This document shows positions 1-5,738 of a DNA stretch of 31,278 nt, piece after piece (position 1 is the stretch's first letter; each line of letters begins with the position of its first letter). The notes below the pieces were generated by a model. That model did no database searches, had not been told where the DNA came from, and was given only the letters and a program-made list of their open reading frames with translations. Both the position numbers and the translations under genes were made by a program. The DNA comes from Clostridiales bacterium (GTDB taxonomy: Bacteria; Bacillota_A; Clostridia; Saccharofermentanales; Saccharofermentanaceae): positions 1-31,278 of the forward strand of contig JAILHZ010000150.1 of assembly GCA_024695545.1 (NCBI GenBank). The letters run 5' to 3'.

Positions 1-152
1 GAAAAGTATCCGGAGCTTCCTGTGGATTCCGAAAGTTTCTGCGCGCAGCCGGGGCCACTGTGAAGGATCGGGAGAGCGCGGTCGATCGCCTGAACGGTCT
101 GCATCGCACCCAGTGCGCATTTATATCTTTGCTTATCTAATAACTTCGCCAT
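1..152 (-). CDS. Nitrogenase component 1-like second subunit (NifK-like), N-terminal fragment
   Basis: The first 50 residues of a second component 1 subunit are visible before the window edge. They start MAKLLDKQRYKCALGA and continue to a SGPGC motif. Cys12 and Cys36 are the likely first two P-cluster-type ligands, compared with Cys70 and Cys95 of NifK. The ATG overlaps the stop codon of the upstream nifD-like gene by one base (TAATG) and the ribosome site GGAGG lies inside that gene, so the two subunits are probably translationally coupled in equal amounts. The rest of the protein is outside the window, so its third ligand and full family assignment cannot be checked. It is expected to form an alpha2beta2 complex with the nifD-like product. 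Confidence 0.85.
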   Translation of the reverse strand, partial: MAKLLDKQRYKCALGAMQTVQAIDRALPILHSGPGCAQKLSESTGSSGYF

Positions 153-1618
153 TATTTCGTTTCCTCCAGGAACTTATCAACATTCTGCTGGTACCACCAG
201 TCTGTATATGGAAGCTTGGTGCGCTTTGCCAGGTTTTCTTCGAAGCTTCTGTTATTGATCGCATCGAGGACGGTCTTGGCAAATTCCAGTGTGTGCTTAT
301 AACCGAAGATCATGTACTCATCGGCAACATAGATCGCAGGTGTACCGTTCTTGATCGCCCATACGGTGGAACCCGGGTGACGGGAAAGATACATATCCGG
401 CTGATACTTGTGAAGGATGTTCATGACCTCGAAGTTCTGCTGGTCGGCAACACTTGCTTCAAAGTCGATATCATTATCCAGAAGGTACTTCATGGACGGC
501 GGTACATCGCCGTTTTCATACTTCTTATCGTAATGCCATGCCAGTGCCCAGACGACCTTGATGCCGAGTTCATTGAGGACACGGGAAACTTCGAATGTGT
601 AGCCCGGGCCCATACCGAGAACGGCGGTCTTGCCCTCAAGCTGCTTCTTAATTTCTTCGATCTGCGGCAGATAGATCGCACGCTGCTCTTCGATATACTT
701 TTCGATCGGTTCGGATCTTCCCGTTACTTTACCGATCTCACGCAGCCACGTCTCAAAACCGACGATGCCGCACTGGTTAATGGATCTGACGTAAGGAACG
801 CCGTACTTTTCTTCCAGTGCATTTCCGAGATAGTTACCGAGAGTGCCGCAGATGCAGGTCGTCGCCAGGCTTTCGGAAATGTGGGACAGTTCTTCTACCG
901 TGGAATTGCAGTACAGGAATACCGGATCGAGATCGAAGTTTTTGAACATCTCGATGATCTCCGGACGGGCGCTCTCGAAGAAGTTCTTGAAGTTGATCTT
1001 ATTCGTCTTCACGCCTTCTCTCGGGGGCTGAACGATAGACTGAAGTACCGCGTGGTCGGAAATATCGAAACCGGTCGCCCAGATACGGGACTTAAAGCCT
1101 TCGCAGTGAACGGCCACGATCGGAACTCCCACTTCATCTCTTACCTCATCGACGATGCTGTCGATATCCTCACCGATGATACCTGTTGCGCAGGAAGAAG
1201 ATACAAAGATCGCCTTCGGGGAATATCTCTTATTGACTTCGAGGATGACGTTTCTAAGTGCATTCGTGGATCCGAAGATCGTGTCATTCTCGTTCATGTC
1301 GGTTCCGACATAGATCGTATCACTGGTAACGCCGCGCTTTTTGGACATAACTTTCGCCATGTAGTAAGCACCGGCTGCAGCTACGGAGCATCCTGCCGGG
1401 CCGTGGTGGATGAGTGCCACATCACGGATACCGCAGAGCTGGCCGAGTGCACAGGAGGAAAGACATGTACTGGACTGCGAGAAGCAGCGGGAACAGCCTT
1501 TCAATGTTCCGCATTCACTCTGGGTCGCCAGATCCTTAAGGGTTCCTACATAACCTGTGATGGAACCGATACGGTTTTCTCTGGTGGCGACATTCGAATT
1601 AGAAAGATTAATAGCCAT
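152..1618 (-). CDS. Nitrogenase component 1-like alpha subunit (NifD-like), probably not an N2 nitrogenase
   Basis: This 488-residue protein has the NifD fold signature: HHGPAGC (72-77), SSCATGIIGED (141-151), CEGF (172-175) and EEKYGVPY (269-276). Cys52, Cys77 and Cys143 fit the P-cluster ligands; the 66-residue spacing Cys77-Cys143 equals Cys88-Cys154 of Azotobacter NifD. Cys257 aligns without gaps to cofactor ligand Cys275 when anchored on EEKYG. Using the constant offset of 11, Trp180 replaces Gln191 and Phe184 replaces His195; no Arg sits at the Arg96 position and Tyr340 is near Arg359. A His442 equivalent is not evident; the only nearby His is H442 in GYKHTLEF, which is not collinear. 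A dense N-terminal cysteine set (36, 42, 45, 52, 56, 62) is extra. It lies in cysK-nifB-nifX-nifH-cysK2-nifD-nifK. The likely role is reduction of an organosulfur substrate (inference); the family is certain, the substrate is not. Confidence 0.9.
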   Translation of the reverse strand: MAINLSNSNVATRENRIGSITGYVGTLKDLATQSECGTLKGCSRCFSQSSTCLSSCALGQLCGIRDVALIHHGPAGCSVAAAGAYYMAKVMSKKRGVTSDTIYVGTDMNENDTIFGSTNALRNVILEVNKRYSPKAIFVSSSCATGIIGEDIDSIVDEVRDEVGVPIVAVHCEGFKSRIWATGFDISDHAVLQSIVQPPREGVKTNKINFKNFFESARPEIIEMFKNFDLDPVFLYCNSTVEELSHISESLATTCICGTLGNYLGNALEEKYGVPYVRSINQCGIVGFETWLREIGKVTGRSEPIEKYIEEQRAIYLPQIEEIKKQLEGKTAVLGMGPGYTFEVSRVLNELGIKVVWALAWHYDKKYENGDVPPSMKYLLDNDIDFEASVADQQNFEVMNILHKYQPDMYLSRHPGSTVWAIKNGTPAIYVADEYMIFGYKHTLEFAKTVLDAINNRSFEENLAKRTKLPYTDWWYQQNVDKFLEETK

Positions 1619-1636
1619 GTGTTTATTTTCCTTTTC

Positions 1637-3920: not shown

Positions 3921-4791
3921 GTGAGAATGTCTCCTTTACGCCGAGTCTTCTCTGATAGATCTGATCGCCGAACTCCGACTTTCCCGGGACACCCACCGCA
4001 TCTGCTCTACAGTGCTGGCAGTGACGGAAGACATCGATATACTTTTCGGCTTTTCTTCTTGCTTCATCGATCTGCGGGCAGGTCGGTGCTTTTACATCCT
4101 TCAGTTCATGCTGCGGGATCAAAGGAATGATATTGTAGATCTTCGCGCCGGCTTCTTTTACCGTCTTTGCGATCTGCTCGATATGGTCTCCGTTGATCTC
4201 CGGGACAAGCACCGTATTGACTTTGACCGTGATCCCTGCTGCGGCTACTTTTCGGATTCCCGCCAGCTGGTTTTCGATCAGGATCTTCGCTCCTTCGACG
4301 CCTTCGATTCTCCTTCCGTGATAGATGATGTAAGCATTAAGCTTATTTTCTATTTCCGGATCGACCGCATTTACGGTGACTGTCAGAGAATCGATCCCGA
4401 TATCGATCACGTCCTGTGCTCTTTCACTAAGAAGCAGTCCGTTCGTGCTCATGCACTTGATGAGGTTAGGGAACTTTTCTTTTATGATCTTGAAAGTTTC
4501 CAGCGCGTTATCGGTCGCCAGGGTATCTCCCGGACCTGCGATCCCGGCCACTTTGATGTCGGGGCAGATCTCCAGTGCTTTCTTCAGGATCTCTTCACAT
4601 TCTGCAGGTTTTAACACCTTCGATGTCACTCCCGGCCGTTCTTCGACGTCGTTGATGGCGCGGTCACAGAAGCGGCATGCGATATTGCATCCCGGACTGA
4701 CAGGAAGATGGATCCTTCCTGCATTATTCTTATGGCCGCCGAAGCATGGATGGGAGTTCTGCAGATCCTCGTATGTGTTTCTCATCTGCAC
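3913..4791 (-). CDS. nifB: Radical SAM nitrogenase cofactor maturase NifB
   Basis: A 292-residue NifB core without the C-terminal NifX domain. The radical SAM cluster motif CNIACRFC uses Cys35, Cys39 and Cys42. The upstream HPC motif (Cys16), AGPGD (85-89), KCMSTNG (112-118) and the C-terminal HCQHCRADAVG motif (Cys258, Cys261) are the other NifB signatures and bind the clusters fused into NifB-co. NifB makes the carbide-centred 8Fe-9S-C precursor, which implies that the component 1 encoded downstream carries a complex cofactor rather than only simple [4Fe-4S] clusters, unlike BchNB-type enzymes. It starts 11 bases after cysK and overlaps nifX. No nifE or nifN is seen, so NifB-co might be inserted directly or matured on the enzyme (inference). 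Confidence 0.93.
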   Translation of the reverse strand: MQMRNTYEDLQNSHPCFGGHKNNAGRIHLPVSPGCNIACRFCDRAINDVEERPGVTSKVLKPAECEEILKKALEICPDIKVAGIAGPGDTLATDNALETFKIIKEKFPNLIKCMSTNGLLLSERAQDVIDIGIDSLTVTVNAVDPEIENKLNAYIIYHGRRIEGVEGAKILIENQLAGIRKVAAAGITVKVNTVLVPEINGDHIEQIAKTVKEAGAKIYNIIPLIPQHELKDVKAPTCPQIDEARRKAEKYIDVFRHCQHCRADAVGVPGKSEFGDQIYQRRLGVKETFSHG

Positions 4792-4802
4792 TCCTAGGCT
4801 GT

Positions 4803-5738
4803 TCAGTCTTTGAACAGCGGAGTGGAGAGGTAACGGTCACCGGAGTCAGGCAGAAGTGCAACGATCACTTTACCCTTATTTTCCGGTCTCTTGGCGAGGA
4901 TCTCAGCTGCCTTCAGAGCAGCACCCGAAGAAATACCTACCAGAATACCTTCTGATGTGGCGAATGCTTTTCCTTCTGCAAAAGCATCTTCATTCTCGAT
5001 TGCGATGACCTCATCATACACCTTCGTATTCAGGACTTCCGGTACGAAACCTGCGCCGATACCCTGGATCTTATGTGCACCCGGCTTACCTGTGGAGAGC
5101 ACTGCGCTTGTGGCCGGCTCTACCGCAACGACCTTGACTTTCGGGTTCTGGGACTTCAGGTACTCACCGACACCTGTGATGGTTCCGCCTGTACCTACGC
5201 CTGCTACGAAAATATCTACTTTTCCGTCGGTCTGCTTCCAGATCTCCGGACCTGTTGTTTCCTTATGTACCTTCGGGTTAGCCGGGTTAACGAACTGGCC
5301 GAGGATGATCGATCCTTCGATCTCCTTGTTCAGTTCTTCCGCCTTGGCGATGGCACCCTTCATGCCCTTGGCGCCCTCTGTCAGAACGAGTTCTGCGCCG
5401 TACGCCTTAAGAAGATTTCTTCTCTCGACACTCATCGTATCCGGGAGTGTCAGAATTGCTTTATATCCCTTTGCTGTAGCTACTGCAGCAAGGCCGATAC
5501 CTGTGTTACCGGATGTAGGCTCGATGATCGTGGCTCCGGGCTTCAGAAGACCCTTATTCTCTGCGTCCTCGATCATTGCCAGAGCGATTCTGTCTTTTAC
5601 AGATCCGGCCGGATTCAGGTACTCAAGTTTTGCCAGGACAGTTGCCTGTGTGATTTCTCTTTTTTTCGAATACGCATTCAGCTGAAGAAGCGGCGTATTT
5701 CCGATCAGTTCCAGTGCACTTTGCTTAATCTCACTCAT
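4803..5738 (-). CDS. cysK: Cysteine synthase (O-acetylserine sulfhydrylase)
   Basis: A 311-residue canonical CysK. It makes cysteine from O-acetylserine and sulfide with PLP. Lys48 in NPAGSVKDR is the PLP lysine, PTSGNTG binds the substrate carboxylate, GVGTGGTITG is the phosphate loop, and GISSGA and LLPDSGDRYLST are conserved. Length is normal. It is the first structural gene of the cysK-nif operon and starts with a strong AGGAGG. The 180 bases upstream hold a Cys/Met-rich leader peptide and a terminator, so its expression is probably attenuated when sulfur amino acids are plentiful. The acetylserine it needs is provided by the two serine acetyltransferases in this window. Confidence 0.95.
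   Translation of the reverse strand: MSEIKQSALELIGNTPLLQLNAYSKKREITQATVLAKLEYLNPAGSVKDRIALAMIEDAENKGLLKPGATIIEPTSGNTGIGLAAVATAKGYKAILTLPDTMSVERRNLLKAYGAELVLTEGAKGMKGAIAKAEELNKEIEGSIILGQFVNPANPKVHKETTGPEIWKQTDGKVDIFVAGVGTGGTITGVGEYLKSQNPKVKVVAVEPATSAVLSTGKPGAHKIQGIGAGFVPEVLNTKVYDEVIAIENEDAFAEGKAFATSEGILVGISSGAALKAAEILAKRPENKGKVIVALLPDSGDRYLSTPLFKD

Follow-up and report, generated by a model that had tools for sequence, protein, structure and literature searches.

The window analysed here, a 31,278-nucleotide stretch of a Clostridiales bacterium (contig JAILHZ010000150.1 of assembly GCA_024695545.1), carries within positions 1-5738 of its minus strand, in transcription order, genes for a cysteine synthase (cysK1), a NifB-like radical SAM enzyme, a NifX-like protein, a NifH-like reductase (nifH), a second cysteine-synthase-like enzyme (cysK2), the nitrogenase-like subunit D1, and the start of its partner subunit K1. 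The intergenic gaps from cysK1 to K1 are -8 to 44 bp, so that the gene set looks like one operon. On balance, we favour the reading that this operon encodes a nitrogenase-like reductase of sulfur assimilation, a paralogous sister of methylthio-alkane reductase (Mar) with a changed pocket, which would cleave bonds to sulfur in organosulfur compounds and thereby feed the cysteine synthases. The initial annotation had described Nif-like genes interleaved with two cysteine synthases; the gene set was recovered as described, but the window contains just the first 50 or so codons of the NifK-like gene, and full-length K1 was read from a relative (locus L016).

D1 scores far below the cut-offs for NifD, VnfD, AnfD and NifE (for the NifD model TIGR01282, 136 bits against a cut-off of 654), and its nearest relative in the PDB, by sequence and by fold, is MarD; the best PDB match of K1 (L016 copy) is MarK (9d9u_C, 384 bits; next match, 88 bits). 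The alignment bears out the earlier statement that NifD residues Gln191, His195 and Arg96 are replaced and P-cluster-type cysteines and a cofactor cysteine are kept: Trp180 and Phe184 of D1 align with Gln191 and His195, Cys257 aligns with the FeMo-co cysteine, and Ala84/Tyr85 align with the Arg96 region, where gap placement is loose. Among 201 close homologues of D1 (at least 84% identity; 199 distinct), the P-cluster cysteines (Cys52, Cys77 and Cys143), Cys257, Trp180, Phe184, Arg413 and His414 are conserved in every one, and His362 in 200. For the whole D1 clade, the cysteines are found in 15 of 15 rows and the Arg-His pair in 14, with L135 deviating. K1 keeps its three P-cluster cysteines (Cys12, Cys36 and Cys95 in the L016 copy). 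D1 has the cofactor-ligand set of Mar, with Cys257 and Arg413-His414 matching Cys270 and Arg428-His429 of MarD, and in the pocket Trp195, Phe199 and His375 of MarD are kept (Trp180, Phe184 and His362); His194 and His376, in contrast, are Ile179 and Tyr363 in 201/201 close homologues, and position 179 is Ile or Val in all 15 clade rows. N2 chemistry is not expected of D1K1.

The phylogeny of the D subunit was inferred with IQ-TREE from 52 rows (a 64-row set minus 19 long-branched or redundant rows, plus seven deep relatives), and an earlier, quicker tree of 64 rows is consistent with the result. The D1 clade (15 rows; support 99/99) and a clade of Mar and its nearer relatives (14 rows; 93/86) are joined at 100/100, and the two together are separated from the NifD and NifE rows, also at 100/100. 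D1 does not group with MarD of Rhodospirillum rubrum inside the Mar clade (34% identity), and it lies outside the nitrogenase clades, the placement that the initial annotation had named as contradicting its proposal of a Mar-like or distinct organosulfur reductase. That proposal is supported by the Mar ligand set, and its second half fits better, since D1 has a clade of its own, sister to Mar; by the tree D1K1 is not a Mar member, though it should work like Mar. Members of both clades occur within single genomes (G051, G368 and the plasmid of the rumen spirochaete Treponema saccharophilum); hence they are paralogues, which argues for different work, and with its changed pocket D1K1 probably has a different substrate. 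A search with R. rubrum MarD, in which no more than three to five candidates were scored in each genome, gave matches with E of 1e-20 or below in 69 of 398 same-phylum genomes, many of the weaker rows being nitrogenase or other relatives, and MarD at 72-81% identity was found in three genomes (G051, G030 and G175). Several Mar-like DK pairs per genome, often adjoining Ssu-like transporters, were seen in G175, G051 and G368 (L126, L129, L131-L133); they represent a family that has expanded and is for the most part uncharacterised.

Scanning a single genome for each species with tblastn (threshold E 1e-3) yielded 252 stretches encoding a D1 relative; the locus counts given here rest on the best 80 of these (86-100% D1 identity), in some of which the contig ends early. 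K1 directly follows D1 in 80/80 loci, a recurrence that places the pairing beyond chance, and NifH is encoded no more than 4 kb upstream of D1 in 71. Six of the remaining nine loci have 26 to 2281 upstream bases only, and three, from Bacteroidales, have 10 kb without NifH. Many loci are titled rumen or other gut, and they belong mostly to Lachnospiraceae or unclassified Clostridia, with five from Bacteroidales (L085-L088, L090). The nearest genome (G001) has 21% of sampled 31-letter words in common with the window, and its D1 is 100% identical after rounding, with one differing residue. The gene is patchy: 29 of 291 sampled genomes of the class of G001 match at E 1e-20, and in only four does a D1 reach 72% identity. 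Compared with the window, the fetched loci have median identities of 90% (D1, n=80) and 97% (NifH, n=68) versus 51% (NifX, n=67) and 56% (IscS, n=20), by which D1 and NifH look unusually constrained. The T. saccharophilum plasmid carries a D1 of 59% identity together with a MetY-type gene, cysK, radical SAM, NifX, NifH and transporter genes.

Of the 71 loci with NifH, 64 have a CysK-like gene in the slot that separates nifH from D1; 19 of these slot copies are of the CysK2 type of the window, 44 of a second type, and one (L040) is barely over the second-type cut-off. In a CysK tree (68 rows, a chosen sample), the slot copies fall into two supported groups (100 and 96, both starred) plus the G422 copy, both groups include copies from outside the slot, and the label 'in slot' needs five changes, at least four of them forced by starred branches: more than one cysK lineage has supplied the slot. 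When CysK-like genes of any type up to 8 kb from D1 are counted, 78/80 loci have one, the misses being L056 (5.3 kb of upstream sequence) and L089 (26 bases upstream). Of the deeper relatives, G422 (72%) and G501 (51%) have CysK near D1, and the stretches examined of G638, G606 and G619 have none there. Both slot types keep the pyridoxal phosphate (PLP) lysine and TSGNTG, with longer and changed loops, which would line the entrance of the active site. CysK2 is under the curated cut-offs (CysK, 251 bits against 351; cysKM, 272 against 344), and the PDB matches listed for it are cysteine synthases and their kin, not naming its nucleophile; with its PLP motifs kept, it may nevertheless work like a cysteine synthase. 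Capture of the product by the adjacent CysK enzymes, as proposed in the initial annotation, draws its support from operon structure, through the slot occupancy and its filling by more than one cysK lineage.

The metabolic setting was examined in 15 D1 genomes (G001 and the genomes behind 14 of the 80 loci, hand-picked for long contigs and named isolates). No match for the sulfite reductase domain (PF01077) was found in 13 of the 15, so that sulfite would be a poor product. D1K1 is the sole PF00148 pair in six, and can therefore act alone. G001 has nine PF00148 matches, one of them under the cut-off. O-acetylhomoserine sulfhydrylase (MetY) is over the curated cut-off in 15/15. The gene mtnA is needed to obtain 2-methylthioethanol from methylthioadenosine (MTA); it had no match in 13/15 genomes and was present in two, and MTA salvage as the source of the substrate was rejected on this count.

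Upstream of cysK1, the window contains a short leader open reading frame (ORF) with runs of cysteine codons, followed by a terminator-like hairpin; two terminator-like sites are predicted in 5600-6200, versus 0.7 (standard deviation 1.0) in shuffles. By a rule asking for a small ORF upstream of cysK1 that has a ribosome site and a seven-residue stretch containing three or more Cys, leaders are found in 18 of 56 loci versus 8 of 957 other ORFs (controls of at least 200 aa in the same loci), and leaders with four Cys in 14/56 versus 1/957; the loci are related, and Fisher values overstate the significance. A looser rule gives 20/56, adding plausible leaders in L030 and L033. The leader sequences vary by lineage (CCMCCMC, CCCCC, CKCCNMCC) while the cysteine runs persist, and a hairpin precedes a T run in 18/18 leader loci, a count without control. 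A search of the window and six relatives for a riboswitch or T-box gave nothing but tRNAs that reached Rfam gathering scores. In the lineage of the window, a cysteine-codon attenuator probably couples expression to cysteine shortage.

A tRNA-Cys gene is embedded between cysK1 and nifB in 28 of the 55 loci whose junction is intact; the corresponding gap of the window is 11 bp, without a tRNA. Across the 80 loci, ARAGORN predicted 34 tRNA-Cys genes and a single tRNA-Val gene, and 33 of the 34 are of this operon type, mostly at that junction (L027, 6757-6828, and 32 similar loci; no encoded CCA). Their acceptor, anticodon and T arms pair with compensatory changes, a fixed A-G mismatch is present in the anticodon stem (33/33), and the anticodon is GCA in all listed tRNA-Cys but L052. 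A second copy of the operon type was not found in the four carrier genomes searched, each of which has a canonical tRNA-Cys-like stretch elsewhere.

For the proposed reaction, the NifB-like and NifX-like proteins would make and carry an [Fe8S9C] cluster, predicted to be bound in D1 by Cys257 and His414, and the NifH-like protein, using ATP, would pass electrons via the P-cluster to this cofactor. An organosulfur compound would be imported, and the D1K1 site would reductively cleave a bond to sulfur and release sulfide or a small thiol, which both cysteine synthases may condense with O-acetylserine. More tentatively, D1K1 may be a distinct nitrogenase-cofactor enzyme that frees sulfide itself from an organosulfur compound, e.g. 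by cleaving the final C-S bond in a thiol or thioether, and that constitutes a main entry of cysteine sulfur in rumen and gut bacteria lacking sulfite reductase, attenuated by cysteine codons and, in many lineages, with a dedicated second tRNA-Cys.

Several points weigh against the favoured reading of an organosulfur reductase feeding the cysteine synthases. No CysK fills the slot in 7/71 loci, and no leader is found under the rule in 38/56. The altered loops of CysK2 and its score under the CysK cut-off mean that its nucleophile may not be sulfide; we take a role like that of an O-acetylserine-dependent cystathionine synthase to be possible. Import is uncertain, since SsuA-like and SsuC-like genes are near D1 in only 23/80 and 25/80 loci. 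With MetY in 15/15 genomes, methanethiol is a conceivable product. The set compared for PF01077 consists of 14 named genomes (11 positive), not of D1-negative relatives, and several of the 15 D1 genomes are metagenome bins, G001 being 89% complete.

It is rather unlikely that D1K1 is simply a methylthio-alkane reductase, which would release methanethiol from dimethyl sulfide, ethyl methyl sulfide or 2-methylthioethanol for conversion to methionine by MetY, with the CysK genes only co-regulated. The Arg-His motif shared by D1 is proposed as a hallmark of Mar in the available text of PMC12552129, MetY is over its cut-off in all 15 D1 genomes, and two of the three loci with 72-81% MarD also adjoin CysK-like and cystathionine/MetY-family genes (L125, L126); this is opposed by the low identity, by the separate clade with paralogues of both kinds in three carriers, by the replacement of both pocket histidines in 201/201 close homologues, and by the lack of an mtnA match in 13/15 genomes. 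That the enzyme yields sulfide by reducing a sulfur bond other than C-S, for instance S-O or S-S in a sulfoxide, thiosulfate or polysulfide, is improbable: a CysK partnership requires sulfide or thiol, not C-S cleavage as such, and the D1 pocket differs from that of Mar, but the characterised enzyme with the same ligand set cleaves C-S bonds. Still less probable is a sulfonate reductase of the isethionate reductase (Isr) type, freeing sulfite from an imported sulfonate. An SsuABC-like transporter is near D1 in part of the loci, and Isr is reported to require SsuCAB (PMC11423573, available text); however, D1 has all P-cluster cysteines and the cofactor cysteine, and the B protein has NifB motifs, unlike IsrD and IsrB as described there, and 13/15 genomes have no sulfite reductase domain. 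That D1K1 fixes nitrogen, or is a NifEN-type scaffold for an enzyme that does, is hardly credible despite the NifH score over the NCBI cut-off and the second DK pair downstream in some relatives, given that Gln191 and His195 are replaced in 201/201 close homologues, that D1 is apart from NifD and NifE at 100/100, and that 6/15 genomes lack a further PF00148 pair for which it could be the scaffold. The nitrogenase, NifEN and Isr readings were set aside on residues, curated scores, the tree, PF01077 and PF00148 counts.

Features of the operon and its surroundings in the window are collected in Table 1.

Table 1. Predicted features of the operon, its leader region and neighbouring genes (positions in the window; counts refer to the loci of relatives)
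Feature	Position	Strand	Evidence
K1, NifK/MarK-like subunit, first ~50 codons in window	1..152	-	sequence; ATG overlaps D1 stop
D1, NifD/MarD-like putative catalytic subunit, 488 aa	152..1618	-	PF00148 238 bits
cysK2, divergent cysteine-synthase-like PLP enzyme, between nifH and D1	1637..2653	-	PLP Lys and TSGNTG kept, two loops changed
NifH-like ATP-dependent reductase	2698..3546	-	TIGR01287 465 bits (cut-off 394); P loop, two cluster cysteines
NifX/NafY-like cluster carrier	3564..3920	-	PF02579
NifB-like radical SAM enzyme	3913..4791	-	TIGR01290 263 bits (under 344 cut-off)
cysK1, canonical cysteine synthase A	4803..5738	-	TIGR01139 451 bits (cut-off 351)
Terminator-like hairpin, 11 bp, then T run ATTTTTTT, just before cysK1	5768..5794	-	sequence
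Leader ORF MKNMMDRKLTQMCCMCCMCSTCFNGK, 26 residues, AAGGAGG ribosome site; putative Cys/Met-codon attenuator	5834..5914	-	18/56 relatives vs 8/957 control ORFs
SsuB/TauB-like ATP-binding cassette (ABC) ATPase	8320..9126	-	best NCBIfam SaoA, under cut-off; >60-bit match near D1 in 31/80 loci, other ABC ATPases counted too
SsuC/TauC-like ABC permease	9099..10061	-	near D1 in 25/80 loci
SsuA-family substrate-binding lipoprotein	10079..11221	-	near D1 in 23/80 loci
Serine O-acetyltransferase-like	12281..13237	-	EpsC model over cut-off, cysE model under; near D1 in 10/80 loci
PatB-family C-S lyase	13248..14450	-	TIGR04350 over cut-off; >60-bit match near D1 in 36/80 loci
Cystathionine gamma-synthase/lyase family PLP enzyme	14468..15640	-	under curated cut-offs shown; >60-bit match near D1 in 35/80 loci

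The NifB-like protein has the motifs HPC, CxxxCxxC, AGPGD, NAVDP and CxxCRAD and no C-terminal NifX domain, the NifX-like part being a separate gene. The serine O-acetyltransferase-like gene listed is the likely source of O-acetylserine; a second such gene lies at 24696-25613, and a serpin-looking lipoprotein (judged by eye) at 18888-20402. The L016 neighbourhood comprises an SsuA-SsuC-SsuB-like transporter, DUF4418, FtsX and LolD-like genes, then cysK1-B-X-H-cysK2-D1-K1, a second X gene, a second pair D2-K2, and an acetyltransferase gene. D2-K2 is also present in L010 (1719-4467), where the P-cluster and cofactor cysteines are kept, the Arg-His loop is missing from D2, and Cys replaces Trp180; D2 and K2 matches are near D1 in 19/80 loci. 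D2-K2 may act on another substrate or as a scaffold; the idea that D1K1 always needs it as a scaffold was rejected, as 6/15 genomes lack any second PF00148 pair. In G001, a further H-D-K set follows the apparent end of metK (by eye) on contig C25 (L012, 1-4175), with a D that is without the cofactor cysteine and two of the P-cluster cysteines, a pattern reported for isethionate reductase, and contig C72 (L013, 9801-13128) encodes NifH and two very divergent PF00148 proteins beside an apparent metal-chelate ABC transporter (by eye).

If the favoured reading is true, some rumen and gut bacteria use one of the most elaborate metal clusters known for their routine sulfur supply, with a bearing on the hydrogen sulfide, the methanethiol and perhaps the small hydrocarbons of ruminants, and a second branch of [Fe8S9C] C-S reductases becomes available for tracing the origin of nitrogenase. 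Since NifH is over the curated NifH cut-off, gene surveys can miscount these bacteria as nitrogen fixers; the available text on pseudo-nifH reports many such reads from anaerobic places including animal guts (PMC8597730). A separate gut clade with its ligand profile, a CysK slot filled more than once, a cysteine-codon leader and an embedded tRNA-Cys appear to be new: clade, leader and tRNA-Cys are not described in the literature searched, as far as its accessible text goes, which leaves out most subscription papers. Nitrogenase-like genes bearing Cys275 were linked to cysteine synthase or O-acetylhomoserine sulfhydrylase in 2012, with a proposed role in sulfur metabolism (PMC3464626), and in 2023 MarHDK-like genes were placed in anaerobe clusters with other sulfur genes, CysK being named in a figure legend (PMC10418091). 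Beyond the accessible part of the 2012 report, the present analysis adds the gut clade, the loop-I ligand, the regulation and the CysK slot.

The leader resembles the cysteine-codon leader peptides of Actinobacteria (PMC1262725), short ORFs with Cys-codon runs before cysteine genes; according to the available text no conserved terminator hairpin is found in Mycobacterium, whereas here, in Bacillota, a hairpin and T run follow. With NifHDK and NifEN, the system shares the fold, a NifH over the curated cut-off and the P-cluster ligands; it differs from NifHDK in the replaced Gln191/His195 and in a cofactor histidine located in the Mar loop, not at the His442 site. Like IsrBHDK of Rhodobacter capsulatus, said to occur in intestinal bacteria (PMC11423573), it is nitrogenase-like, set in sulfur assimilation and associated with an SsuABC-type transporter; the differences, as far as the available text goes, are that IsrD has one of the three P-cluster cysteines and no cofactor cysteine, that IsrB does not resemble NifB, and that the Isr product is sulfite. 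The closest known system is MarBHDK of R. rubrum (PMC12552129; PDB 9fmg, 9d9u), described in the available text with a NifB-like maturase, a NifH-like reductase and a DK pair in a sulfur-metabolism setting, and with all P-cluster cysteines, the cofactor cysteine, the Arg-His loop I and Trp195/Phe199 (MarD numbering). From Mar it is set apart by 34% D identity and a sister clade, by replacement of His194 and His376, by no mtnA match in 13/15 D1 genomes, by NifX as a gene of its own, and by the CysK between H and D in most loci.

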